Assembly (NCBI GenBank): GCA_035048485.1
Contig: CM068588.1
Coordinates: 30,378,769-30,442,768, forward strand
Source of the DNA: Pteria penguin
Taxonomy: Eukaryota > Mollusca > Bivalvia > Pterioida > Pteriidae
DNA: 64,000 nt
Direction of reading: 5' to 3'
Shown: in pieces, positions 10,775 through 63,261 of the stretch
Layout of the letters: the number at the start of each line of letters is the position of its first letter
How positions within the stretch are numbered: the stretch's first letter is position 1
Made by a program: the position numbers and the translations under genes
Notes under the pieces: model-generated
The model's input: only the letters and a program-made list of their open reading frames with translations
The model's database searches: none
Told to the model about the DNA's origin: nothing

Positions 10775-12840
10775 TTACAGCGATATGCCACGCTCAATCA
10801 ACTTCACAACAATGAGAAAATTTGGATATGTATAAAAAAATAGTTTATATGTAAAGATGATGGATAAATCCAAATCATAAGTCCGAAAATCATGAAACCA
10901 GAGGACATACAAAATCAGAGAAAATGATAAAAAAGTGGAAAATAACAAAATATGTCTACTGGAAGAGCATATGTGGACCCCTATAATGGAGTAAGAACAG
11001 GTGCCCGGGGAGAGTGAGCATCTCCTACTTGCTAGCAACACCCCTCACATATACCCAGTAGAAAGAGTCAAATCGTGTAAATCCGATATATATTTATATA
11101 TGTAGAAGTCGAAGTAGGTAACCTTCTGGTATAGAAGGTGTCAAATCTGTGTACAATGATCAGAATCGGTCTCAGTCCAGAATATCATTTAAAAGTCTGG
11201 ATAACGAGATTTCATATGCAGTAATAAGAGTCTCGTAACGACCATAGAAATTCCTCAGTGACGTTGCTAGTCTAGCACATATATAACCCTAGTTGAGTAG
11301 CTTATCTGAAAGTCGCTTAGCCCTCAGAACAAAGTCATTGTAATTTGAACATGCTCTGGAATAACGTATTAACTGAGATATGAATACACCATATGCGGGC
11401 GATGATGGAATGTTGCTACTTATGAAAGGAAAGTTTGTGATAGCGAAATTGAAATCGTCACGTTTGTCATAGAGTGAGGTGTTCAATTGACCATTAATAT
11501 CGAAAAACAACATAATATCTAAATACGAAGTAGAATTACTACTTTCTGTGGTTTCTTTGACCTCCAGTTCACTTGGATGGATAATGCTAAGGTAATCCGC
11601 GAATGAAGGATTATTAATTGAAAGCAAGTCATATATATATATATATATATATATATATCTGTAAATGAAATTGAAGGCAAGAGCCAATTGTTTCCTTCCT
11701 TGCATAAGCAAAGACTGAATGAATTCAGCTTCGTATGAGTAAAGGAATATGTCAGGCATAGGCAGGGCACATTTACTGCCAATTGGAATGCCGACAATTT
11801 GTTAAAAAAACCTTTCCTCCAAACACCACAAAAATGTTATCGATATGAAAGTTCAATATCTGGATGACATCTGTTTCAGTGTATTTATTTTTGGAATCAG
11901 AATTTTCCCTAACAAAGTAAGTTTTATCATGGCCTATAACTATATATTTGAATTTGCTGCTTCCGTTTTTACTAGTAAATGCATTTTGAATAACTTCCGC
12001 TAATTTGTCTTTTAATTTCTGATGAGGGATCGTTGTGTAAAGAGTCGAAAAGTCAAAAGACTTGATGCAGTGAATTTTAATAAAAGTTTTTGATTTAAGA
12101 TGTTCCAACAATTTTTTTGAATTTTTAAGGATTCATATTTAATTAATTCCCCTTCTAGAATATACTGTTTTGCAATACGAATGAAGGCCAGATCTAATTT
12201 CTGATAATATTTTTGTGAGTAGCATTGACACAGATTTTGTGGAACACTTCGAGGAACCAGCGATAAAGCGTTGTTTGTAAGGATTTTTGTGCATTTTTGG
12301 AATGCAGTACAAATATGGTAGTTCTAAATTTAATTTATTTGTGTCAATACCAAACGAATTGAGGACAGATTTATGATTCTCAAGTATTCCGAAACCAAAA
12401 AGTTCGGGAGAGTATAAATAGGATTTCCTGGAGATAAATTTAATCCTAATTCTTTCACTAGGCTGTCAAAGTAATATTTCTCACAAGTAAATGTATAATT
12501 ATTAGACGCTTTATCTGCTGGGGTAATGATATAATGTTCTTGGAGGAATGTAAGTTCTCTTATAACATCAGGATCTTTAAAAATAGATTCGAATCTGGTG
12601 TTTACAGAGCCTTGTAATTTTTTAATTTTTGATCTCAGCAGTACTGCAATAGATTTTATCCACTCCGAAAGCGTGTCAACCTGTACTTCCTCTCTTTTTA
12701 TCCATCGTATAACATATACCTCGCTGCAGCTGATAATATTCTCAAACTTTTGGCTCCATGTGAATGATCTGGGTTCTCTGTTTTTGGATCTTTAAGTAAA
12801 ACTTCTCTTAATTTGATGTTTTTTGTTAAGTTATAATAGA
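10775..12840 (-). pseudogene. Family A Penelope-like retroelement with near-full RT, inactivated
   Basis: On the minus strand from about 12800: a helical N-terminal part with REEVQVDTLSEW, then ITPADKASNN, then the Lys-His-Lys segment, then FDFSTLYTTIPH (about 12050, RT motif A), FGGKVF (about 11815), YSYEAEFIQSL, the motif C region at 11631-11660, IIHPSELEVKETT, SYLDIMLFFD, YDKRDDFNFAITNFPF, SNIPSSPAYGVFISQLIRYS, and LLNQGY. The tail (11280-10775) carries the family's conserved motif. Frameshifts and stops separate the blocks. The YIDD box is destroyed by a TA-repeat expansion. Nearly the same 3' half is found inside the LINE at 38540-39113. Confidence 0.8.
11631..11657. repeat. (TA)n expansion inside the RT catalytic box
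   Basis: About 26 bp of TA lie exactly where family A copies encode RYIDDVLSINN; the frame here reads RYIYIYIY...DLLSINN. The repeat therefore grew within the codons of motif C. Confidence 0.9.
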
Positions 12841-14763: not shown

Positions 14764-14765
14764 AA

Positions 14766-16235: not shown

Positions 16236-18290
16236 ATTAAAGAGAAAACTGAAGACATCTGAAAAAGCTGCATGACAAAAATCACCAAGGACATGCACAC
16301 AAAAAATGACAAAGTAGAATATACACTGAAAAACATTACAAAAATATTTGCGGTTACGATACCGATTTAGGATGGTCAATTGAAGTAACAAACGTCATTC
16401 AATTGGTGTGGCTAACCGATTTACGGGCGTCCACCTTCCCACTCACCGCAAAAGCAGCACAATCAAAGGACACACATTTTAAATATATAAATGATCCTCT
16501 ATATAGAGAACAGGGATCAACAGGTTTCTCAAGAAGAAAGGTCATAAAAAATTAAGTACACACGAAAAGTTTGTAGAAAAATATGTTGCTATCAAAAATG
16601 TGTAAGGCGACATCAAGATGAGTAAATTGTGCCCTGCCCGTCTGTAAGCCGAGCTCAGATTCTTTATCAATAGGAGTCCCGACTAACAGTCAGAGGGGAC
16701 GAAGATCAGGACCTTGTCTCCTCTGAAAAGGTTTGGACAAGGCCTGTCATAGAGTCCCTACCGCTCTGTTAGTCAGCGTACAACGCTCATGCGAAAGTCT
16801 GCATTGGGTTGTAGAGGGACCCAATACAAGAACTATGGTCTTAGCGATGATATCGGGGGCCTATTGTCGATGTCGAAGGCGTTCAATAATTTTAGAACCT
16901 GCTAATAAGAAATTATCAGAACCTTTGACCCTCCTTAGTTTGTACAGTAGATCACCATAGAAATTGGGATGGGATATTCCGCTGGATCCGTATTGTTGAA
17001 AAGTCACATTTCCAAATTTAGATAAAATGTCTGAATAAGATCTGAAAAATTTACCAAAAGTTTTTCGAAGTTTATGATATCTATAGCCCTGCGTAATAAG
17101 TTTAAACGTAATCTGAGAATTTTTTTTTAAATCCAAAACATCAGTGCAGGCTCTAGCGAACCGAACCAATTGGCTAATATATATACCATATGATGGGAGT
17201 CTGGGGACATCACCATCTAGATAAGGGAAATGTACAATAGGAAATCCAAAGTCGTCACGTTTATCATATATGTTGGTATGAATATTGTTAATTATTTTAA
17301 TATCTAAGTGCAAAAAAGGTGTTTCCTGGTCGGAAGTATTGGCTTTGTTTAATTGTAGTTCAGATGGATTAATATCAGTAATATACTTTTTAAACTCAGG
17401 GTTATCGATTACTAAAATATCATCGAGATATCTAGAGGTGTCATTGAACTTAGCAATAAAGTCGAAACGTTTAGAGGTTTGAATAGAATGCATAAAGTCG
17501 CTCTCGTAACAGTACAAAAATAAATCTGCTATAAGAGGAGCGCAGTTAGTGCCAATAGGAATCCAAATAATCCGTTCATAAGGTTTGCCATTAAATTGTA
17601 CATAAATATTATCATCAAAAATGTGATGGCAGTACACAACTCAGTACAAGTCCAGTATTTATAATCATCATATTGTTTGTTAGAGAAAAATCCAGATGTA
17701 ACTAAAGTACAGAGGTCTCTGTTGAAACACCAGCGTATGAGAGACAACAATTTGGTTTTGATTAAGTAATGAGATAGAGAGGTTTATAGTGTCCCAAAAT
17801 CAAAAATAGAAACGTTATTTGCCTCAAAATTTCTCAAACGGAATTTTTCAATGACTTCGTTAGAATTTTCGATAGACCAAAAGTAATTGACTTTACTATT
17901 GCTAAAGACAGCATTACAGTACTTGATAACATGGTCTTTAACTGCAGTAAGAGAGGAGGTAATATGTTTAGAAAGCACTGTTGTAGAGCAATGACTAGAA
18001 TTTAATATAAAACATGATTTATATGGATTTTTGTGTAGTTTGGGAATCCAATACATTGTTGGAAGATAATTTTTAACAATGCTTAAATTGAAGTCACACA
18101 TAGCTTTAAAATGGTCAGATAGGATCTTGTCTTTAAACAATGGGGTTTCAACATACGCAGAAGTAGAGTTCAATTCAGTTTTAAGAACTGTCAAATAGTA
18201 TATTTTTCAAACAATGATAATAGTATTAGCTGCTTTGTCAGCAGGTACGAGGACTGGTATATAATGTGGCTGTATGAATAAATGGGAATT
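16236..18290 (-). pseudogene. Family B (subtype B1) Penelope-like retroelement with RT
   Basis: Read on the minus strand: VPADKAANT (about 18240), IPKLHKNPYKS (about 18050), FDFGTL then a TAA at 17781-17783 (RT motif A, sister copies keep a Tyr), IPIGTNCAPLIADLFLYCYE (about 17560), RYLDDILVIDN (motif C, about 17425, both Asp kept), LQLNKANT, IYDKRDDFGFPIV (about 17250), GDVPRLPSYGIYISQLVRFA, TQGYRYHKLRKTFGKF (about 17080), and a basic tail to 16861. One stop and one frameshift near 17600-17637 break an otherwise continuous RT. The 3' tail (16840-16236) contains the family B conserved core. Penelope-like membership is inferred from motif style; no endonuclease domain is visible. Confidence 0.8.
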
Positions 18291-34071: not shown

Positions 34072-35249
34072 AGATGCCGCTTCAATTGTCAAAGACTTGG
34101 AATAACTTCAAACGGGCAGCTGATAGTAAAACTGTGAAGAGTAAATTATGTGAATCGGAACTGACATATACTGGGGCACTACGAATGTGTTGAACCATTT
34201 AAGGCTTAAACACAATACAGGTACTGAAAACGCAAGCACTCCTCAAAAGCAATGGTCTATGGCAGAGTTTGTTCGTTCAACTCGCTCCCGTCACATGTTT
34301 GGTGCGAGGTCAGAGGAGGTAACCCGTGCAATTGTGATAATGGTTGTGGAAAATTATATTCCTCTTAGAATTGTTGAGGGAACAGGTTTCAAAGGCCTTA
34401 TGTCTCTTATATCACCTGAATAAGTGTTCCGTCGCATAACAATAAAGTCGAGAATCGACACCGTATATGAAGAAAATTCAAAACTCCTCGTCGAGTTGCG
34501 GGATGTCGAAACAATCGCGCTGACCACGGATAAGTGGACTTCAAACCCCACGACTAGTTACATTGGTGATTGAGCACTACATTGATAAAAACTGGGAAAT
34601 GAAATCAAATACTTTGGTTACCCAATAAATGCAGGAACGCCATACTGGGGATAATTGCCCCCCCCCCCCCCCCAAATATTGTGTAGCGGAGTTTCAGTTA
34701 GGAGGCAAAGTCAGCGACGTTGTACACGCCTCACCCGAAACATGAATGTAGCAGGCGAAAAATGTTCTGATTGGAATGAAGAAAAATTGTTTTGGCCACA
34801 CATTACAGCTATGTATAAAACCGGCCTTAGAAATTAATTCAGTCGCAAAGTTAAGTGCACGATCCAGTAAAGCAGAAATGCTAAAATATTCAACATTCCA
34901 CGACTTGAACTATTACAAGACGTTTTCAACAGGCTGGAATTCCACACAGGTGATGCTGGAACGACTGGTTGAACAACGGCGCGTTATTACGGACGTACTG
35001 CTCGACAATTCAGTCTTAGCTTTGAGGAGGAGGACGACAGTCCGTTAATTACGAAGGTTAAGGAAACTATCGCAAGTAAACTCAGGAGTCGTTTCGATCC
35101 ATACGCCATTGAAACCGTATCGCCAACATCCGTTGTCGCTTCTTTTCTGGATTCGCGTCACAAACACTTGTCTTATTGTCAACTACGCAGAGACAAAGTG
35201 TCGTAGAGACAATCGACTCTCTCTACTGGATGACGTCCCGTTCCGAAAG
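34072..35249 (+). pseudogene. hAT (ZBED-like) transposase, N-terminal two thirds
   Basis: BED-finger-like start (34074: KTWNNFKRAADSK ... CESELTYTG, then NVLNHLRLKHN in a shifted frame), WSMAEFVRSTRSRHMFGARS (34255), LRIVEGTGFKGLMSLISPE (34370), IALTTDKWTSNPTTSYIGD (34510, the conserved Thr-Thr-Asp-x-Trp-Thr box), GHTLQLCIKPALE (34790), ARSSKAEMLKYSTFHDL, GWNSTQVMLERLVEQRRVI (34935) and VASFLDSRHKHL (35128). Several frameshifts and stops, so inactive. The frame ends in FRKRKKK at 35249, where a family B element begins. The missing C-terminus is found at 47396. Confidence 0.85.
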
Positions 35250-35520
35250 AGAAAAAAGAAGACATCTGACAAAGCTGTACATCACAAATCACCAAGGACC
35301 TGCACACAAAAAATGACAATAGCATAATATACAAGGAAAGGCATTACAAAAATATTCGATTCTGCTGCGGTTACGATACCGACTTAGGACGGTCAATTGA
35401 CGTAACACGTCACTTAATTGGTGTGGTTAACCGGATTACGGGCACCCACCTTCCCACACACCGCAAAAGCAGCACGAAAAAAAATCACACATATAAAAAT
35501 TGATAAATAATTCTCCATAT
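35250..35520 (-). mobile_element. Family B1 element in hAT, 3' end segment (1 of 3)
   Basis: Starts GAAGACATCTGA as at 16246 and contains the conserved core (TTACGATACCGACTTAGGACG, GGTTAACCGGATTACGGGC). Interrupted at 35520 by the LINE and continued at 43531, then at 47162. Confidence 0.88.
35506..35520. repeat. Target-site duplication of the LINE, left copy
   Basis: AATAATTCTCCATAT, repeated exactly at 43516-43530. Confidence 0.9.
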
Positions 35521-35700
35521 GGTGTCACGTGACTAATGACGAAATAGGTGGACGCATAAAATTTGGAGGAGGAAAATTTTTTATATATTTCCTGTCATAC
35601 GCTATTCATAGTCTCCAAACTTGTGTGAATCATTATGTGCATGGTGTAGATTGCATTTTATACTTTTGGATTATATTTTGTGCGTTAATAAGAGTAAATA

Positions 35701-36963
35701 ATGGCATCAAAACAACAAAGGGATTTGAGATCGAGCGTCAGTGGAGCGAAAAGCAAAAACAATAATGAGGAATCCGTGAGTACAACTCTATCCGACATTA
35801 AAAATGATATCAGTGACATCAAAAACAAGTTATCTAAATTAGATGCTTTAGATCAAGTTTTAAAAGATACCAAAGAAGATATTTGGGGACATGATGGTTT
35901 AGATTGTCAGATCAAAAGTGTAGCAGAGTTGTCGGAGTACAATGAAGCTGATGTTAAAGAGTTGCGTGAGGAAAATCACATGCTCCGACAAGAGATAGAG
36001 TTAATGAAGTCAGACATGATCAGGATGGATAGGAAAATCGAAATACAAGGCAAATGAATTACAGAACTCAAAAGTAGATCGATGCGGGACAATATTATGA
36101 TCTACAATTTTGAGGAAAGTTCGAACTCAACGGAGAATCTCATGGAAACCATCCCAAGGGAAATAAAAAAAAAACATCTAGGAATTGATGTTTATTTTGT
36201 TAGAATCCACAGAAACAGCCCTACACCAAATGCTAACGGGAAACCACGATCGATAACCGGGAAACTTACCGACGGTCAAAAAAAGTTTGAGCTTATGGCC
36301 GCTCAAGGAATGAAAAGAAAGGCTGGTATTAGACTACCATTTATAATTTCCCCACAATCTCCGCCGGAAATAGCAGAAGAACATCAGAAATTGCGCCTCA
36401 TTAGATCTAAATACAGGGAAAGTGGTGTTAGAACCAGGCTGGCCGGGAACAAGCTTTGTTTTGAGGATGGGACGGCGCATAGAGACAAAGTCAGCACCCC
36501 CGCGCAGAAGACCTACTCATAACAGATGAAAGTGAAACAGAAAAGCTTAAGAAGATCGAAGTGAACACTACAAAGAGTACTATTGTCGAGAAAAATAAAT
36601 TCAAGGGTAACGGTCGTGAGGTGTACTCGATTGATGAGGTGAGAGATACATACAAGAAAGTTGTAAAAGACAAAGAATATGCAAAAGCGGATCACAACAT
36701 ACTAGTATATCGTATTCATGATGATGAAGGCTTTTGTGACGATGGTGAGTTTGGTGCAGGAAAAAGATTTTTGAAACATCTACGTGAAAACAATATTCAC
36801 AACATAGCTCTTGTCATTTCTCGATGGTGCAGCGGACAACGTCTCGGGGCCCCGCAGATTTAACACTATTATATTGCTGATCAAATTATTCGGAGCATCT
36901 TATAATTCCATGCTTTATCAGTGCAACTCTTTCTACTCTCTTTTTGACATTGATGATAAGTAA
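35701..36963 (+). pseudogene. LINE ORF1: coiled coil + RNA-binding region + IMPACT-like (UPF0029) domain
   Basis: From ATG 35701, residues about 35-118 form Leu/Ile/Met heptads (DIKNDISDIKNKLSKLD ... LREENHMLRQEIELM), a trimerising coiled coil as in L1 ORF1p. In-frame TGA at 36055-36057. The same frame resumes with SRSMRDNIMIYNF (36076) and an RRM/C-terminal-domain-like part to 36480. A shift near 36490 leads into frame 36483+ with AEDLLITDESETEKLKK and then the IMPACT-like domain: ADHNILVYRI (36687), CDDGEFGAGKRFLKHL (36735), NIALVISRWCSG (36801). A shift within GGGGCCCC (36848) brings in the expected LGPRRF motif and a stop at 36961. IMPACT/YigZ proteins share His-Asn, Asp-Asp-Gly-Glu, Gly-(A/G)-Gly, Ser-Arg-Trp and Leu-Gly-Pro-x-Arg-Phe. 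The domain lies inside the duplication-bounded LINE, between ORF1 and ORF2. Confidence 0.75.
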
Positions 36964-37441
36964 TTTCACATTTCTACAAATTAGCTTTTTTCACGTTTAA
37001 ATAACCCGCTATTAGGGTTCGGAGTGATAGTTTGACATAAGGAACTTCCGGTTACGAAATGTGAATACATCAGGACACGACTAATACTAGTAATAGGCTA
37101 TGCTAAAGTATTATAAAGATAAAGGATTCACACTTTTATTATACATTGTTAAAATATGTAAAATAGCTTTTGATAAGGAGGGTTTTTTACAATAAAAATT
37201 AGTATATCAAAGCTTCCTTTCATCCAGATTTGAGAGTCGACTCTAAATTCGCCAACTTCGTCATTGAAGATATTGAAAATGGATGTGAATGTGAACATGA
37301 GTGTGTTGTTTATGTGTGAATATATGTATATAAGAATGTTTGAAGGTGATGAAGGGACTTACATGGTGGTTTCAATGTATATATTATCCAAATGTTTGAA
37401 ACAAATGCACACAAAAATAGTAAATGTAACTACACATTACA
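36964..37441 (+). other. LINE inter-ORF spacer
   Basis: About 480 bp between the ORF1 stop and the first ORF2 methionine, AT-rich, with a frame of 65 codons at 37264-37461 that shows no motif. Confidence 0.5.
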
Positions 37442-38540
37442 ATGTCAATGCCAAAGACTGATGAGATGAGCCTTAAAATAGCAACTGTGAATTGTCAAGG
37501 TCTCGGCTCCCCATCAAAAAGAAAAGATGTCCTTAATTTTTACAGAGATAAAAAATATGCAATTATATGTTTACAAGATATACATTCTATCACCAAGTTG
37601 GAACCATATATTGAATCACAATGGGGGTATAATTGTTTTTTTCAACTCCTTTAACTCTAACTCAAGAGGTGTGGCAATTCTGTTTAATAATAATTTTCAA
37701 TTTAAGATCCTTGATAGGCGAGACGATTGTCACGGAAATATGCTCGCTTTGAATATGTGTATTAATGAAATGAATGTAACTTTGATAAATGTATATGGTC
37801 CCAACTCAGACACCCCAGAATTCTTTGATAATGTTCGTTTGGTAATTTTAGATTTTCACAATCCCCATTGTATTCTATGTGGTGATTTCAATGTGGTATT
37901 AGATCCTGATTTAGATGCATTTAACTATACAAATATTAACAACCCTAATGCAAGAGAGAACATTTTAGAAATGATGAGTGAGCTTAATTTAGTGGATTAT
38001 TATAGAATTGTTAACCCTGACAAAAAAGTCTTCACTTGGCACAAAAAGAATCCAGTGAAACATGGGAGATTAGATTATTTTTTTATATCAGAAAATACAT
38101 GTATTATTGTCGACAACATATCAATTAAAGCAGGTTATAGGTCAGACCATTCAAGTGTGATTTTGAATATAAAATTCAATAAATTTAAACGTGGCCCGGG
38201 CCTTTGGAAATTTAATAACTTGCTGCTTTCTGACAAAGAATATGTTCAAAAAGTTAAACAAAGAATTTCACAGATAAAATCCCAATATGCAGTATTAATC
38301 TATAATCAAAGTAGTATTGCTACAGTACCAGATGACACCATACAGTTTTCAATAGATGATTGCACATTTTTTGAGGTGCTCCTAATGGAAATTAGAGCAT
38401 TAACAATTTCATACTCTATTTTTAAAAATCAAGAAAAAGATAAACAAGAAACGCAACTGATTAAAGAAATTGATAATTTAGAAATTGAAAGCCAGTCTGA
38501 TTCAAGTAAAAATCATTTGCTTGATGAAAAGAAAACTAAG
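37442..38540 (+). pseudogene. LINE ORF2, APE-type endonuclease domain
   Basis: IATVNCQGLGSPSKRKDV (37473), IICLQDIHS (metal-binding acidic position is Asp), a frameshift in a T run at about 37637, GVAILFNN, LINVYGPNSD (37785), CILCGDFNVVLDPDLD (37873), HGRLDYFFIS (38062), and GYRSDHSSV (38134, catalytic Asp-His pair). All signature boxes of the apurinic-endonuclease fold that nicks target DNA for reverse transcription are visible. The frame ends at 38543 because a family A element is inserted. Confidence 0.9.
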
Positions 38541-39113
38541 TAGCAACATTCCATCATCGCCCGCATACGGCGTATTCATATCTCAGTTAATACGTTATTC
38601 CAGAGCATGTTCAAATTACATTGGCTTTGTTCTGAGGGCTAGGCGACTTTCAGTTAAGCTGCTCAACCAGGGTTATATATGTGCTAGACTAGCAACGTCA
38701 CTGAGGAAGTTCTACGGTCGTTAAGAGACTCTTATTACTCCATATGATATCTCCTTATCCAGACTTTTAAATGATATTCTGGACTGAGACCGATTCCGAT
38801 CACTTTACACAGATTTGACACCTTCTATACTAGAAGGTTGCTTACTTCGACTTCTCCATATATAAATACATATGGAATTCACACGATTTGACTCTTTCTA
38901 CGGGGTATATGTGACGGGTGTTGCTAGCAAGCAGGAGATGCTCACTCTCCCCGGGCACCTGATCTCACTCCATCACAGGGGTTCACATATGCTCTTCAAG
39001 TAGACATATTTTGTTATTTTCCATTTGTTTTTCATTTTCACTGATTTTGTATGTCCTATGGTTTCATGATTTTTGGACTTGTGGTTTGGATTTATCCATC
39101 ATCTTTACATTAC
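38540..39113 (+). mobile_element. Family A retroelement fragment inserted in LINE ORF2
   Basis: SSNIPSSPAYGVFISQLIRY, LLNQGYICARLATSLRKFYG and then the tail with GTGACGGGTGTTGCTAGCAAGCAGG. It matches 10880-11430 (minus) closely and ends at CATCTTTACATT, the same 3' end as the solo tail at 55515. It splits ORF2 between endonuclease and RT. Confidence 0.88.
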
Positions 39114-40250
39114 ACACATCAGACAAGAGAAATTAAAGGGACATGTCATTAGATGAAAAAGTCTCGTTGGATAGACGAGGGAGAGAAACCTTCTTCATAT
39201 TTCTGTAATTTAGAAAAAGGGACTTTCATAAATAAAACAATTCAAAAGTTAGAATTAGATGATGGACATATTACATATGAGCAAAATGATATTCTCAATC
39301 AAACAAAGGAATTTTATCAAAATTTATGTTCAAGTAAGGAAGATCATTTGATTGACGTAAACTTAGAGGATATCTTAATGAACAAAATATACCTAAATTA
39401 AATGAAGAAGAATGTAGAATGCTAGAAGGTGATATCACAGAATCAGAAGTATTAAATACTCTTAAGAAATTAAAGAATAATAAATCTCCGGGAAGTTCAG
39501 GCTTCTCAGCAGAATTCTACAAGTTTTTCTGGTCAGATCTAAAATATTTTATTATTAGAGCAATACAAAATATATGTAAAAATGAAATTTTACCAACTTC
39601 GCAACGATTTGGTATCATAACATGTTTGCCGAAGGGAGAGAAACCTAGGCAATATCCTAAAAATTGGAGGCCAATCACACTTTTGAATACCTTCTATAAA
39701 TTGATTTCTGGATGCATCAGCTATCGTATTAGATCTTGTCTTGATAAGCTGCTATCAAACTCTCAAACAGGATTCTTAAGTGGAAAATATATTGGGGAGA
39801 ATACTCGTTTCATTTATGATCTTATGTCTCATACAGAAGATGAAAATATTCCGGGTTTTACTTATCTTAATCGATTTTGAAAAAGCATTTGATTCTGTTT
39901 CATGGCCGTTATATACAAATTCTAAATTTTTTTTCAATTTTGGTCAAAATATCATCAAATGGATTAAAATTCTTAACTCAAAATTTAAAGCCTCTATCTT
40001 GCAAAGTGGTTTCTTATCTGGGCAAATAAATATTGAACGTGTCTGTCGTCAGGGCGATCCCGTTGCCCCATATATCTTCCTTTTATGTGCAGAGATTCTA
40101 TCATTTTTAATTAAGTCAAACAAAGATATAAAAGGAATTATTATAAATAAGAATGAGCATAAAATTTCCCAGTATGCTGATGATACCTTAATTATTACTG
40201 ATAGAGTACAATACAATAGAGTAGACGCCTACTTACCCCTATAGGTAGGG
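39114..40250 (+). pseudogene. LINE ORF2, reverse transcriptase domain
   Basis: KSRWIDEGEKPSSYFCNLEK (39156), LKNNKSPGSSGFSAEFYKFF (39468), TCLPKGEKPRQYPKNWRPIT (39622), TGFLSGKYIGENTRFIYDLM (39768), LILIDFEKAFDSVSW (39862, motif A), CRQGDPVAPYIFLLCAEIL (40045, motif B) and ISQYADDTLIITD (40166, motif C). Shifts near 39400 and 39862 and a deletion after 40203, where the RT connects directly to IGRVTVAKSLIIPKLN of the C-terminal part, show it is dead. Confidence 0.9.
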
Positions 40251-41496
40251 TCACTGTGGCAAAATCTCTTATTATACCCAAACTAAATAATTTGTTTATT
40301 TCTTTACCTAACCCTAATGGTAAAATATTAAAACAATTAAACAATGATATCTTTGAATTTATCCGGGTGGTAAACATGATAAAGTTAAGAGGGATATTTA
40401 TGTTAAAGAATATGATAAGGGTGGATTAAAAGTAACAGTTATTAAATCTTTTATAACCTCATTAAAATGTACTTGGATTAATAGATTACTGAAAAAAAGA
40501 TAGATATGGAAAGATATTTTTATTGAAACCTATGGAAAAGAAAATGAAAAATGAAACACCTCATAGATTTTGGTGATGAATTTATAACACATATGGTCCA
40601 AATTACAAAAATTAGCTTTTGGAAAGATACTTTACTTTGCTGGCAAAGGGTAATGAAACTACAAGTGAATGAAAAAACTTTTTTGATGAAGAAACAAAAC
40701 TACTGACAAAAAGGGAATTTGAGGAAAAATTTAATATTGAAAACATATGTACTATGCAGTTCAATGGTATGATATCAGCCATTTCACAGTTAGTACAAAG
40801 TACAACTGTTGATTTAAAGAAAGGTATAAGTTTACCACACCTGTCCTTTCACTATAAGTGTTTTATTATACAAATCGAAGATAAAATAACTAAATATCTA
40901 TACAACTTACTAATAAAAAAAAATAAAAGCCAACCTACTGCATTTATAAAATGGAGTTATAAAATACCCTTTGTTGAAAATGATACAACATTACATGAAA
41001 GCTTCAAAATATGTTTTAATACCACTAGTGATTCATCTTTACAATGGCTTCAATTCCGATTACTACATAGAATTATCCCTGTTGGTTATTACTTAAAGAA
41101 AATTAATATAAAACCTTCAGATATCTGTTCTTTTTGTAATTCTTATTCAGAGACAATAGAGCATGTTTTTTTTATGAAAGCCCAGTGATAAATATCATTT
41201 GGGAGAATTTAACTGAATTTATAAATATATCTTGTAACACCAACTTATCATTTACTATGATAGATATCATTTTTGGAAAAGAAAACTTTAAAGAAAACAT
41301 AGCTATAAATTTGATTATCTTGTGGACTAAACAATATATATATTCCTTTGTTCCAAAATTCCTAAATTTCCTATTATCAATGTTCTCAAAAAAACTTTGT
41401 TTTTAAAATATCAAACGGAGAATTGCCTTTTTTACAAAAGAAATAAAATTGATGTATTCAAAAATAACTGGCTATCAGTTGGTAAAGCGTTTGAAA
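40251..41496 (+). pseudogene. LINE ORF2, C-terminal region with zinc-knuckle-like motif
   Basis: Includes WLQFRLLHRIIPVGYYLKKI (41043) and ICSFCNSYSETIEHVFF (41123), the C-x2-C-x7-H part of the C-terminal Cys/His motif in L1-type ORF2. A T-run frameshift at 41166-41172 separates it from INIIWENLTEF. The last recognisable part is FKNNWLSVGKAFE (41460), where the family B2 element is inserted. Confidence 0.75.
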
Positions 41497-42985
41497 GAAA
41501 AAAGAGGAGTTACCGGCTCAGTTATGTGGCAGAAGTCACCATGGAGCTATACAATACATGAATATAAATAATATAATAGAACATTTAACACATTACAAAA
41601 ATATTTAATTGTAGTGCAATTACGATACTGACTTAGGACGGTCATTTAATTTGACAAAAGCCAAACAAATGGTGTGGTTAACCGGTTTACGGGCCCACCT
41701 TCCCACTCACCGTAACAGCAGAACAATCAAAAGACGTACATTTAAAAATTTATAAATAATCCTCCATGTAAAGAACAAGGGTCAACAGGTATCACATATT
41801 GAGAGGTCATAAAAATATAAACACGTAAGGTATTGTAAAACACATAATGGTATAAAAATATATGCGACATCAACATGATAAACCGTGCTCTGCCAGTCTG
41901 AAAGCGAGCTAAGACCCTAGATCTGTAGGAGTCCCGACTAACAGTCAGAGGGGACGAGGTTCAGGACCATGTCTCCTCTGAAAGAGGTTTGGACAAGGCC
42001 CGTCATATAGTCCCCGCCGCCCTGTTAGTCAGCGTGCAACGTTCAAGTAAAAGTCTGCATAAGGCTGTAGAGGGGCCAAATACAAGACCTATAGTCTTTT
42101 TGATGATCTCAATATCATATTGTCTATTTAGGAGACGTTTGACTATTTTATTACATGATAAAATAATGTTATCGGAGCCTTTTACTTTCCTTAGTTTATA
42201 TACGAGATCACCGTAAAAGTTAGGATGGGAAATTCCATTGGATACGTACTGTTGAAAAGAAATATTTCCAAATTTAGATAGAAGTTCTGAATAAGATCTG
42301 AAGAATTTGCCGAATGTTTTTCTTAGCTTGTGATATCTGTAACCCTGAGTTAAAAGTTTAGTAGTAATTTGTTAATTTCGTTTATGAAAGTCCAAAACAT
42401 CGGTGCAGCCTCTGACAAATCGAACTAATTGAGATATATAGATACCATATGATGGGAGTCGAGGGACATTGCCATGCAAGTAAGGGAAATTTACAATAGG
42501 AAATCCAAAATCCTCACGTTTATCATAAATATTAGTATATATTAGGTTGTTGATAATTTTGATGTTTAAATCTAAGAAAGGTGTAGATTTATCTCAAGTA
42601 TTAGCTTTATTCAATTTGAGCTCTGGTGGATATATTTCTGATATAAATTGTTCGAATTCAGGGTTGTCGATAACCAAAATGTCATCCAGATATCTGCAAG
42701 TATTATTAAATTTGTCAATGAGGTCAAAACGTTTTGATTTTTGAATAGAAACCATAAAATCCCTCTCATAACAATAAAGAAATAAATCTGCTATCAGAGG
42801 CGCGCAGTTAGTAACCATAGGAATCCCAACTATTTGTTGATATATCTTGCCATCAAATTGCACAAAAATATTATTCATGAGAAAATCTAGTGCTTTACAT
42901 AATTCCTTGCAAGTCCAGTATTTATATGAAGTATATTGTTTGTTGGAAAAGAATCCAGAGTTATTGGAAGTACATATGTACTTAA
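41497..42985 (-). pseudogene. Family B2 Penelope-like retroelement inserted near the LINE ORF2 end
   Basis: Minus strand from 42985: SNNSGFFSNKQY, NNIFVQFDGKIYQQIVGIPM (42878), TNCAPLIADLFLYCYERDFM, RYLDDILVIDN (42690), IYPPELKLNKANT then TGA, IYDKREDFGFPIVNFPYL, VPRLPSYGIYISQLVRF, QGYRYHKLRKTFGKF, and IGLVFGPSTALCRLLLERC (42090). The complete B2 tail runs to 41497. Catalytic Asp pair kept; few breaks, so one of the younger copies. Confidence 0.85.
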
Positions 42986-43515
42986 AATAACATTCTCTAA
43001 CTTTCTCCTTTTTTTATCAATCTGGTGAACCTTGACAAATATATCGTTTTGTTTTATTTCTATTTATTTTGTGATAATTAGATCTTTCTAGCTCATGCAT
43101 ATGTGCATGTATATGTACATATGTATGTATATATATGTAAGTATATGCATGTATATGCATGAGTCTATGTGACAGTGCATATATATATATACAAATGTAA
43201 TACACTATATATATGTGTATATACATGTATGTAAAAAACTGTGTGTGTTTTGTTTTGCTCAGTCATAATGCTTTATGTTGTGTATATTGTACTATGTATA
43301 TGCTAAGTATGAGAAAACCCATGTCCTATGTTTCTAAAGTGTGTGCAAGTGTGAGTGATGGTGTGTGTGTGTGTAAGGGTGATGGGGTGTGTGCAAATGT
43401 TATGTAAATGCAGTTGCATGTCAATCAATGTTATGAACCTTTCTTCTGTATGCAACTGCAATGTTTTTGTATATATCATTGTGTTGAATGTGTTGCAATA
43501 AAAGAAAATAATAAT
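42986..43515 (+). other. LINE 3' UTR
   Basis: Contains an irregular (ATGTATATGC)n-rich stretch (43098-43220) and a TGTGTGTG stretch (43360). Ends TGTTGCAATAAAAGAAAATAATAATA before the target duplication, giving the poly(A) signal and A/T-rich tail. Confidence 0.75.
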
Positions 43516-43884: not shown

Positions 43885-44464
43885 GCTGCCAGCAAGTCAA
43901 GTATTTGATCACAACCTTTGATGATGATGAAAAATAGAACTGTCTCGAACTTGATATATATCTCATGGTGGTATACTCACACACCAAAAATTGGATGAAT
44001 ATCTACAAGCATTTAGAAAAAAGGTTCGAAAAACTGCCATTTTAAAGAAATTTTCTAATTCCAAGGACCTTAATTTCGTCAAAAATTAGTGGACCTAAAC
44101 GGAACTGGAACTTGATCTGTAACTCATGGTGATAGACTCACACACTATAAATTGGATGAATATCTACAAGAATTTAGAAAAAAGGTCCGGAAAACTGCCA
44201 TTTTAAAGAAATTTTCTAATTCCAAGGGCCGGAAATCCGTCAAAAATTAGTGGACCGCAACGAAACTCGAACTTGATCTGTAACTCATGGTGGTATACTC
44301 ACACACCAAAAAATGGATGAATATCTACAAGCGTTTGGAAAAAATCCGGAAAACTGCAATTTTAAAGAAATTTTCTTATTTCAAGGGCCTTAATTCCGTA
44401 ATTCCGTCAAAAATCAGTGGACCTTAACGAAACTCGAACTTGATCTGTAACTCATGGTGGTATA

Positions 44465-44500
<36 letters not shown>

Positions 44501-45035
44501 AAAAATTGGATGAATATCTACAAGCGTTTAGAAAAAAAAAGTCCGGAAAACTGCTATTTTAAAGAAATTTTCTTATTCCAAGGACCTTAATTTCGTCAAA
44601 AATTAGTGGACCTAAACGGAACAGGAACTTGATCTGTAACTCATGGTGATAGACTCACACACTATAAATTGGATGAATATCTATAAGAATTTAGAAAAAA
44701 AGGTCCGGAAAACTGCCATTTTAAAGAAATTTTCTAATTCCAAGGGCCGGAAATCCGTCAAAAATTAGTGGACCGCAACGAAACTCGAACTTGATCTGTA
44801 ACTCATGGTGGTATACTCACACACCAAAAAATGGATGAATATCTACAAGCGTTTGGAAAAAATCCGGAAAACTGCAATTTTAAAGAAATTTTCTTATTTC
44901 AAGGGCCTTAATTCCGTCAAAAATCAGTGGACCGAAATGAAACTCGAACTTGATCTGTAACTCATGGTGGTGGACTCACACACCAAAAATTGGATGAGTA
45001 TCTACAAGCGTTTAGAAAAAAGTCCGGAAAACGTG
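43885..45035. repeat. 161-bp tandem repeat with three-unit higher-order period
   Basis: GGATGAATATCTACAAG-like starts at 43993, 44153, 44314, 44509, 44670, 44832 and 44992. Spacing is 160-162 except for one unit enlarged by a (CA)n insertion at 44467-44498. Units 1 and 4 share GGACCTTAATTTCGTC, 2 and 5 share GGGCCGGAAATCCGTC, 3 and 6 share GGGCCTTAATTCCGT, so the array is two copies of a trimer of about 483 bp. Confidence 0.93.
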
Positions 45036-61272: not shown

Positions 61273-62520
61273 GTTATAATTTTAACAGTAGTACTAACAG
61301 AATATCTGACGAAGTGGGTGGATGCAGAACCAATCGAAGAGAAAACAGCTGAAAATGTTACAAGAGTTCTTACAAAATTTGTGGCGAATCATGGCGTCCC
61401 AGAAGTCTTGATAACAGACCAGGGACGCGAGTTCTGTAATCAGTTAAATGACAAGTTATGTTACCAATTCGGAATGCAACACCGCGTGGCGTCACCTTAC
61501 CATCCGCAAACGGGCGGCCACACAGAACGATATAACAGGACATTGTGTGAAATGTTGTCAAAATACGTAAACGACAGACATACCGATTCGGATACGAAAT
61601 TATCATCCATGCTGTTTGCATATAGAACTGCCGTTCACGCCTCAACAAAGATGAGTCCATTTTACTTAGTGTACGGTAGGCAAGCCAGATTACCCGTGGA
61701 CTTAGATTTACCAACAGAAGTAGATGCAAACGAATCTTTGGCAAATGTTTTAGAGAGAAGATGTGATGCTTTTGTTGCCTTGAATTGTAACAGAGAAGAG
61801 GCGGCTGCAAACATAAAAAAGGCACAAAAAAGACAGAAGAGAAACCATGACAAACGAACCTCTGAAGCTGAGTTTAATGTTGGCGACCTAGTGCTGGTCC
61901 ATAACACAAGAAAAACCACAAGGAAGGGCGGGAAACTTGAAAAGAAATGGATAGGTCCATACACTGTCAAAGAAGTCCTGAAAAAATGCACGTACAAATT
62001 AGAGGAACTAAAGAATACAATTAATGGTAGTCGCTTAAAATTGTACCAGATTAGAGAAGAGTTTCAGGGTGTATCCAAAGATGGTATTAAAAAGAGAAAG
62101 ACGGCAAGTAAAGAAGCTGAGAAACCCAGACATGTGTTTTCCTACTCCGAAACCGATCATGATGGCGGTTATGGTGCTCAAAATTGTTTTCCAAAGGAAG
62201 ACAAATGTATATCTCGGGACCCAAGTCCGTGTAGTGACAATGATACCATCATTATTGGAGAGGAAAACGATCTGGGTAAATCCAAAAATGGTGATAATAG
62301 GGGAAAGAATGCTAACAATGAAGAAGAGAAACCCAAAGATGAGTTTTTCGACTCTGAGACTGATGGCGAATATTGTGCTCGTTTGCCAAAAGAAAATACA
62401 CGTAGATCTCGCAGCTCCAGTGCATGTAGTGACAGTGACACCATCATTATTGGAGAGGAAGAGGGCGTCAATTTGTTTAATTTTCGTCCGGTTACAGGAG
62501 ACTGGCAGAGAGAAAACTGA
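61273..62520 (+). CDS. Gypsy-type integrase, catalytic core and C-terminal part
   Basis: VVLTEYLTKWVDAEPIEEKT, VLITDQGREFCNQL (61408, second catalytic Asp), ASPYHPQTGGHTERYNRTLC (61492, catalytic Glu), SMLFAYRTAVHASTKMSPFY, LVYGRQARLPVDLDLP, then a basic linker, FNVGDLVLVHN (61874), and KKWIGPYTVKEVL (61943, SH3-like DNA-binding part). The first Asp is absent because of a deletion or missing exon at 61270. From 62110 an acidic tail with two related units of about 65 residues, each ending DTIIIGEE (62242 and 62437). Stop TGA 62518-62520; the same frame continues into an OTU domain. The long open frame suggests recent activity or host selection. Confidence 0.85.
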   Translation, partial: VIILTVVLTEYLTKWVDAEPIEEKTAENVTRVLTKFVANHGVPEVLITDQGREFCNQLNDKLCYQFGMQHRVASPYHPQTGGHTERYNRTLCEMLSKYVNDRHTDSDTKLSSMLFAYRTAVHASTKMSPFYLVYGRQARLPVDLDLPTEVDANESLANVLERRCDAFVALNCNREEAAANIKKAQKRQKRNHDKRTSEAEFNVGDLVLVHNTRKTTRKGGKLEKKWIGPYTVKEVLKKCTYKLEELKNTINGSRLKLYQIREEFQGVSKDGIKKRKTASKEAEKPRHVFSYSETDHDGGYGAQNCFPKEDKCISRDPSPCSDNDTIIIGEENDLGKSKNGDNRGKNANNEEEKPKDEFFDSETDGEYCARLPKENTRRSRSSSACSDSDTIIIGEEEGVNLFNFRPVTGDWQREN

Positions 62521-63261
62521 AACAAATTTGATTTAACCGTAAAAAATGGGTACATCAGTGGGAGAGAAAGAAAAATAAAGCTGACATCCGAACCAACAAA
62601 AGTGGTTTGTATGAGGGGTGACGGAAACTGTCTCTTTCGAACATTCAGTTTCGTTTTGTCAGGCGTACAGTCGTTTCATAAAAATGTGAGGGACATAATC
62701 GTATCCTATATGGAGGAAAACGATTCCATCTTTTCTAAGATCGAAAATACCCCAATGGAGCAATGTCTTTCTGTATCAAAAATGAAAAACCTCGGAACCT
62801 GGGGAACTGAGTTGGAGATTATTGCATTTTCATCAATCTGCAATACCCCTGTCCAGGTCTTTTGTGAAGCTGGTCGTGGGCAGTACAAATGGTTAGTCTA
62901 CACGCCTGCAAGCGGTGTAAGCTCATCTAATTGTTCTGTCTTTCTGCAGAATATTCATGGACATTTCGAACCGGTGCTAGATGTGAGTGAAGATGTGTAT
63001 AGTAGAACACCGTATCTTAGAATAGCAGATTATGTCGACAAACCTCTGCAGAATTACGTTCCACAAGACATCCTGGAATCTGCATTAGTTAATTCGAATG
63101 TAGACGAAATGAAGGTGAGATCTATCGAGGACATAGAACCTCCCCATGTGATTACCAGAAAATTCACCGACAAATTCTGCACCAATTGCAGATTCAAAAT
63201 CGATCCGAACATCTTTAACACCCTTTGCGATTGGGCCAACTTTGACCAGTTAATAAGCTGA
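62521..63261 (+). CDS. OTU-family cysteine protease domain, same frame as the integrase
   Basis: VVCMRGDGNCLFRTFSFVLS (62593) holds the OTU Asp-Gly-Asn-Cys box with the catalytic Cys. WGTELEIIAFSS (62798) and HGHFEPV (62955) supply the conserved Trp/Glu and the catalytic His. A C-terminal 90-residue extension contains ITRKFTDKFCTNCRF. The frame is open from the TGA at 62518 to a TGA at 63259-63261. The first Met inside is 62602, only six residues before the catalytic box, so independent translation would truncate the fold. It fits better as the C-terminal domain of the integrase polyprotein. OTU enzymes remove ubiquitin chains. Confidence 0.85.
   Translation, partial: NKFDLTVKNGYISGRERKIKLTSEPTKVVCMRGDGNCLFRTFSFVLSGVQSFHKNVRDIIVSYMEENDSIFSKIENTPMEQCLSVSKMKNLGTWGTELEIIAFSSICNTPVQVFCEAGRGQYKWLVYTPASGVSSSNCSVFLQNIHGHFEPVLDVSEDVYSRTPYLRIADYVDKPLQNYVPQDILESALVNSNVDEMKVRSIEDIEPPHVITRKFTDKFCTNCRFKIDPNIFNTLCDWANFDQLIS

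Follow-up and report, generated by a model that had tools for sequence, protein, structure and literature searches.

Long interspersed nuclear elements (LINEs) differ in the domains carried by the protein of their first open reading frame (ORF1), and the ORF1 types distinguished in the available portions of PMC4120745 and PMC3905857 include RRM, CCHC, PHD and esterase domains together with coiled coils and C-terminal domains (CTDs). The cellular translation regulator IMPACT and its relative Yih1 carry an RWD domain, through which they are described as binding GCN1 (PMC7140605, PMC10931611, PMC4503747; statements from these papers refer, here and below, to the portions of them that were available), and an ancient domain, known in Pfam as UPF0029. 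The two systems meet in a 64-kb window of the genome of the bivalve Pteria penguin (the window being the whole 64,000-nucleotide stretch analysed), where a degenerate LINE copy on the forward strand (35527-41501) encodes an ORF1 with an IMPACT domain. The LINE lineage to which this copy belongs carries the domain in one open frame with ORF1, and it is virtually certain that we are dealing with an L1-type bivalve LINE in which the UPF0029 ancient domain forms the C-terminal domain of the ORF1 protein (ORF1p).

The window copy comprises, in order, a 5' untranslated region (UTR), ORF1 with the IMPACT domain, and ORF2, and by blastn it is colinear, in five pieces of 72-79% identity, with L027, a copy with both frames whole (L-numbers designate, in the first place, 20 genomic UPF0029 matches taken as 10-kb loci). 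Its ORF1 begins with an N-terminal part (35701-36057, + strand) that is a coiled coil, with an L1 ORF1p match of profile A4 and helices predicted at residues 44-142 in the model of a homologue, P0006. This part runs up to an in-frame TGA (36055-36057), past which the frame continues unchanged through the RRM and CTD (36058-36495, +). A charged linker follows (36496-36590, +), at whose start the window copy switches frame and which lies in a single frame in the homologue P0001, and leads into the UPF0029 domain (36591-36902, +). The first-pass annotation, made from the sequence alone, had placed such a domain after the coiled coil and RNA-binding part of ORF1, behind an acidic Glu/Lys linker and ahead of ORF2. 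Both this order, with the coiled coil and RNA-binding part at 35701-36495 and the endonuclease and reverse transcriptase matches of ORF2 beyond the domain, and the boxes on which the call was based are borne out. The boxes ADHNILVYRI, CDDGEFGAGKRFLKHL and NIALVISRW all lie in the open frame 36483-36863, with the GPRRF box encoded in a neighbouring frame, and Pfam recognizes UPF0029 in the former frame with a score of 59.1 bits against a curated cut-off of 27 (match 36591-36854, E 4.9e-16). The last helix of the domain, HYYIADQIIRSIL (36864-36902), is read in the first frame past one stop (36861-36863). The ORF2 remnant (37453-41501, +), delimited by Pfam matches and by blastn against L027, contains frameshifts and stops and retains matches to the endonuclease (37491-38543, +), the reverse transcriptase (39356-40244, +) and zf-RVT (40673-41188, +). 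It is further broken by an insert of ~576 bp (38536-39111), which is an inverted match, at 92.7%, to 10849-11422 of the window, and lacks ~260 nt of L027 near 40203. The copy stops at 41501, the end of ORF2, its 3' UTR and poly(A) being gone.

Copies elsewhere in the same genome (838 Mb in 49 contigs) are in better condition. The UPF0029 search of this genome scored 150 of 153 candidates and that with the ORF1 RRM/CTD 150 of 469, and hence the counts derived from them are lower bounds. There are at least 130 UPF0029 matches, far above chance, two of which are exons of the host IMPACT gene, and at least 34 of the 130 lie in stop-free frames of 391-449 amino acids. Measured from the first ATG, ORF1 spans 396-419 amino acids in 18 of the 20 loci (328 in L012 and 298 in L028), and a whole ORF2 of 1259-1274 amino acids is present in six. 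In Pfam, three of the intact ORF1s match UPF0029 at 71.7-75.5 bits, and three of the ORF2s match Exo_endo_phos, RVT_1 and zf-RVT. The loci L013-L018 form one subfamily spread over five contigs. Over ~6.15 kb each of their 15 pairs is 99.4-99.7% identical, their ends lie at a nearly identical place, and all six have a whole ORF1 and four of them a whole ORF2. Target-primed insertion is expected to leave a poly(A) tail followed by a target duplication. Such duplications, of 13-16 bp and after poly(A) tails, were found in seven of the nine loci examined among the 20, L014 being ambiguous and L024, also one of the nine, showing none; they lie within 0-14 bases of the LINE 5' end, with, in addition, 15 bp at L027. 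The suspicion voiced at first pass, that a retrotransposon had captured the domain, is thus supported by what the broken window copy could not itself display, a single open frame joining the domain to ORF1 in other genomic copies and in proteins from elsewhere. As a separate observation, 1497 nt with ATGT-type repeats separate ORF1 from ORF2 in L024 (3137-4633), the distance being 382-555 nt at four other loci.

A first protein search, against ~5.8 billion sequences, yielded five candidates, of which one was a relative. This protein, P0001 from Pinctada imbricata, is 71% identical over 94% of the query and contains the C-terminal part of ORF1, the linker and UPF0029 in one frame. When the window's RRM/CTD piece was used as the protein query, P0001 was found again and no others, and viral contigs searched with P0001 contained no relative. 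A profile of seven ORF1 pieces extended the set to 80 proteins, 69 of which carry the precomputed PF01205 assignment. Named sources of the fusion are Pinctada imbricata, Ostrea edulis, Saccostrea cucullata, Saccostrea echinata and Crassostrea virginica, in addition to two entries, both partial, from Crassostrea (Magallana) gigas; among the many further fusion proteins, some share no more than 21-31% identity with the first row of the query yet are fused in the same order. The 80 also include a few that are not LINE proteins, namely P0073, named as YigZ family, and P0075 and P0076, which carry PF09186. P0013, P0018, P0019 and P0049 bear the names 'protein IMPACT homolog' or 'IMPACT-like' and are in fact LINE ORF1s or pieces of them, which means that the annotation of IMPACT in molluscs is contaminated. 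P0071 and P0077, on contigs of 2.9-3.5 Mb, are ORF1-like proteins in which UPF0029 is eroded and the RW...GG box missing.

The distribution of the domain among related ORF1s indicates that it is a regular part of these elements. Among the best 150 of 469 candidates of the RRM/CTD search, 88 of the 114 ORF1 loci with at least 37% identity have a UPF0029 match within 1.8 kb downstream, as opposed to one of 18 below that value, a border that was set after the rows had been seen. The first-pass concern that other copies might lack the segment therefore did not materialize, and the 26 nearer ORF1 loci without a downstream match are likely to be fragments. Seen from the other side, 89 of the 130 UPF0029 matches have an upstream ORF1 match and 41 have none by that query; of the latter, two are the host gene and some belong to the divergent L032 subfamily. 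A sister lineage (L040-L046) has ORF1 frames of 275-343 amino acids from the first ATG, which in seven of the seven stretches fetched end soon past the CTD in a short basic tail with KRPR, and has no IMPACT domain. From the presence of the domain above the 37% border, its near-absence below it and this sister lineage it follows that these LINEs belong to a larger group, of which only one part is marked by the domain. In an unrooted tree of the ORF1 RRM/CTD (41 rows: 27 database proteins, nine genomic ORF1s bearing the domain and five of the seven lacking it), the IMPACT-less ORF1s are not set apart and sit beside deep IMPACT-bearing rows. This pattern means loss, a second gain or exchange, and complicates the simple picture of one capture.

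The phylogeny of the domain itself sets the LINE versions against the host gene, whose IMPACT domain is split over three exons (C3:29433-29435 kb; two recognized by profile and the third by eye). When 92 domain rows are placed by maximum likelihood, the LINE versions group in one clade of their own (support 94), with the host IMPACT outside it; the host IMPACT and Yih1 pair at 99, and this pair and the LINE clade are joined at 98 relative to the bacterial versions. The tree rests on 121 alignment columns with two eukaryotic IMPACTs and has some long branches. Its input included 12 genomic ORF1s and eight of 81 bacterial or viral loci (L047-L127); P0072 and P0074, which are short entries among the 80 proteins, and P0078-P0080 had been excluded beforehand, and of 100 rows seven were dropped for want of a domain match and one more as too short. 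The topology suggests one old capture, from a eukaryotic gene of the IMPACT type. Among the bacterial or viral loci, L047 is a UPF0029 protein that stands alone; its viral contig is IMGVR_UViG_2617270907_000003, and its identity to a short type known from bacteria is 60%. That type has 511 relatives in the genome collection, the 80 listed appearing proteobacterial by title.

Coding change within the lineage falls mainly at synonymous sites. In nine of the 66 possible pairs among 12 ORF1s, taken from different subfamilies and with domain borders copied from L024, the UPF0029 domain has proportions of nonsynonymous differences (pN) of 0.12-0.30 and of synonymous differences (pS) of 0.66-0.87. 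The pN of the RRM and CTD is similar (0.15-0.32), and that of the linker (0.24-0.54) exceeds the value of the domain in all nine pairs.

The fold of the domain is that of YigZ, TT1547 and Yih1, in agreement with the family assignment made at first pass. In the ancient domain, the invariant features are described as grouped in loops on one side (PMC4503747). Of the 14 columns that are identical in six cellular references, scored over 77 LINE rows, eight (DDGE, AG, R and the last G) are retained in 66-76 of 77 or in 75 of 75 rows. The retention of this core, the reported binding of IMPACT to ribosomes with enhancement of translation initiation (PMC10931611), and the co-sedimentation of mouse L1 ORF1p with polysomes, for which its authors propose a block of eIF2alpha phosphorylation via PRKRA (in the available part of PMC10289378), together suggest a module that faces the ribosome or translation factors. 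The resulting proposal, which has somewhat less than an even chance of being correct, is that the domain docks the complex of ORF1p and RNA onto host ribosomes or their control factors and helps the translation of LINE RNA under stress. If ORF1p forms a trimer as human L1 ORF1p does, each trimer would present three IMPACT domains; these could dock the particle on translating host ribosomes or on the factors controlling them, and such docking would keep the LINE RNA in translation during stress. A bolder version, in which this is the LINE's own translation-control domain, with trimeric ORF1p holding particles on ribosomes, shielding them from the stress response and revealing the partner of the ancient domain, is distinctly doubtful.

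Several observations weigh against the docking proposal. The other six universal columns are less well retained (S 45/76, A 57/77, H 60/77, V 49/77, G 54/66, G 43/76), and the window copy has lost some of them. Of 38 further columns, outside these 14, that the host IMPACT and Yih1 share, only nine are retained in at least 60% of LINE rows, which, set beside the eight strong core columns, indicates that the universal core is kept better than the surfaces these two proteins have in common. For the domain, omega was obtainable in two of the nine pairs only (0.16 and 0.17), since synonymous divergence is saturated in most. P0071 and P0077 keep an eroded domain and the sister lineage has none, so that the domain is not needed for LINE mobility generally. 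Furthermore, the ancient domain is described as being without established function (PMC7140605, PMC10931611); the parts of Yih1 that suffice to bind ribosomes, GCN1 and actin coincide in part with the linker region and not clearly with the ancient domain (PMC4503747); and the binding of mouse ORF1p was accompanied by no change in the translation efficiency of bound mRNAs or in testis phospho-eIF2alpha, according to the available text of PMC10289378.

The alternative that fares best, although we consider it unlikely, is that the domain aids ORF1p in packaging LINE RNA, as an additional part that binds nucleic acid or acts as a chaperone. The first-pass annotation had mentioned an RNA-binding add-on, and what speaks for it is the fusion of the domain to the RRM and CTD of an L1 ORF1p-type protein and two basic positions past the DDGE loop (column 74, R in 63/77; column 75, R in 53/77) that are rare in 14 cellular rows. 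However, the domain as a whole is not basic, with a median net charge of 0 (range -8 to +8 in 77 rows) against +5 to +10 for the RRM and CTD of three ORF1s, and this near-neutrality weakens the idea of a simple RNA-binding add-on, as does the presence of an RRM and a CTD in ORF1p already. The linker ranges from -7 to +8 across ORF1s, these values being rough because L024 supplied the domain borders applied to the other ORF1s.

It is quite unlikely that the domain is a structural passenger, stabilizing or spacing the ORF1p trimer with no host partner. While the universal residues could be retained for folding, and the eroded versions in P0071 and P0077 and the domain-free sister lineage are compatible with such a role, it is the loop residues (DDGE, R and G) that are among the best retained, and the domain persists across subfamilies whose ORF1 pieces are 41-52% identical. 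Recruitment of the cell-cycle kinase CDK1 or of actin to the LINE particle, in place of translation factors, is very unlikely: IMPACT interacts with CDK1, and a Yih1 fragment containing the ancient domain (133-258) seemed to bind Cdc28 at least as well as the full protein, but the main Cdc28 determinant was mapped around the linker (all PMC4503747), and most positions shared by the host IMPACT and Yih1 are not retained in the LINE domains.

Just as small a chance attaches to the domain binding GCN1 and restraining GCN2, a role that whole IMPACT does have (PMC7140605, PMC10931611) and that the first-pass annotation had extended to the LINE. GCN1 binding resides in the RWD domain (PMC7140605, PMC10931611, PMC4503747), and no RWD was matched in three whole ORF1 proteins at E 0.1, nor does RWD appear for 55 whole homologues in a listing that showed 25 of 37 families. 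The genome contains six RWD matches, none of them near a UPF0029 match, although this exon-level search is insensitive, since it missed the RWD exons of the host IMPACT itself. GCN1 binding was therefore rejected as the principal reading, competition of the domain with GCN2 for GCN1 is not claimed here, and it is possible that the domain would keep translation going by a route other than GCN1. Finally, a processed pseudogene of the host IMPACT, an unrelated insertion in one copy or a set of host genes has next to no chance of being the explanation and was rejected, the broken state of the window copy and several database names ('protein IMPACT homolog') being outweighed by at least 34 of 130 matches in stop-free frames of at least 391 amino acids, dispersed and near-identical copies with target duplications, occurrence in other genera, and a host gene that has three exons and falls outside the LINE clade.

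One claim about the window copy itself did not hold up, namely that it is enclosed by a 15-bp target duplication. Four exact words of at least 11 bp (13, 15, 15 and 16 bp) are common to the two LINE flanks in the stretches compared, and all four lie inside diverged copies of another repeat, at 35246-35520 and 41492-41767. The former copy (- strand) abuts the LINE 5' end and supplies one half of the apparent duplication; the latter belongs to a longer copy of the same repeat (41492-42959, -) that abuts the 3' end and supplies the second. The repeat recurs in the window at 14764, 16239 and 30905. Since the shared words belong to these flanking repeat copies, they provide no evidence of a target duplication, which was rejected for this copy, itself without a 3' end.

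Among the neighbouring sequences, minus-strand frames at 16861-17640, 42594-43013 and 11289-11801 contain motifs like GIPMxTNCAPL and RYLDDI and look by eye like Penelope-type reverse transcriptases; Pfam gave no significant match, and no reverse transcriptase, for these frames, including those in the flanking repeat. The repeats containing the frame 42594-43013 flank the LINE. A tandem array with a unit of ~160 bp occupies 43944-45032 (self-matches shifted by ~160-840 bp). At 61273-63261, an integrase (rve) frame precedes a domain that Pfam scores, in the next frame, as an OTU-like cysteine protease (40.7 bits), in or beside what we take to be a Gypsy-type long terminal repeat retrotransposon; the OTU-like domain is possibly another captured domain.

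By joining part of a cellular translation regulator to an L1-type ORF1p, the lineage adds what would be a new architecture to the LINE ORF1 proteins. The first-pass annotation knew of no description of this arrangement, and no account of IMPACT or UPF0029 in a retrotransposon ORF1 was found in the literature searched (Repbase, Dfam and closed-access papers being outside it): the word IMPACT is absent from the available text of PMC4120745, and the corresponding portions of a bivalve survey (PMC10294476) and a gastropod survey (PMC11203168) mention L1-Tx1 or Tx1 elements and not this domain. The presence of a diverse lineage in several bivalve genera, together with near-identical copies, makes it likely that the fusion works for the element and did not merely persist by accident. 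If it occurs, docking would be a novel means by which a transposable element deals with the protein-making machinery of its host. The lineage also offers an experimental handle on what the ancient domain of IMPACT and YigZ does, because its many diverged natural versions (77 rows) show which residues must stay. A caution for annotation follows as well, since in molluscs the name 'protein IMPACT homolog' has in some cases been given to a retrotransposon ORF1.

In relation to known systems, the element shares with human LINE-1 an ORF1p with a coiled coil, an L1-type RRM and a CTD, by both profile and fold (2ykp, 2yko, 2w7a), an ORF2p with an AP-like endonuclease and a reverse transcriptase, whose best relative, among solved structures only, is that of human LINE-1 (9k6g, 307 bits, against 75 bits for R2; a family missing from such a listing of structures is not thereby excluded), and, in the bivalve copies, a poly(A) tail with duplications of 13-16 bp. 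It differs in the extra C-terminal UPF0029 domain of ~100-110 residues that follows a variable linker in the bivalve ORF1p. Unlike IMPACT and Yih1, the LINE version is fused to ORF1p in a single exonless frame, is multicopy, has no RWD that could be found, and does not retain 29 of the 38 host IMPACT-Yih1 positions in 60% of its rows. In contrast to YigZ, TT1547 and the short bacterial UPF0029 proteins, the LINE ORF1p ends at UPF0029 without the second half of YigZ (the PF09186 of P0075 and P0076), and its domains group with eukaryotic IMPACT in the tree. A parallel in kind is offered by the LINE ORF1s of type IV (esterase) and type III (PHD) in the CR1 and L2 clades, which likewise have an accessory cellular domain in ORF1 (available portions of PMC4120745, PMC3905857). 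LINEs with other captured ORF1 domains are already known; an L1-type LINE with a captured IMPACT domain would, as judged from the literature searched, appear to be new.
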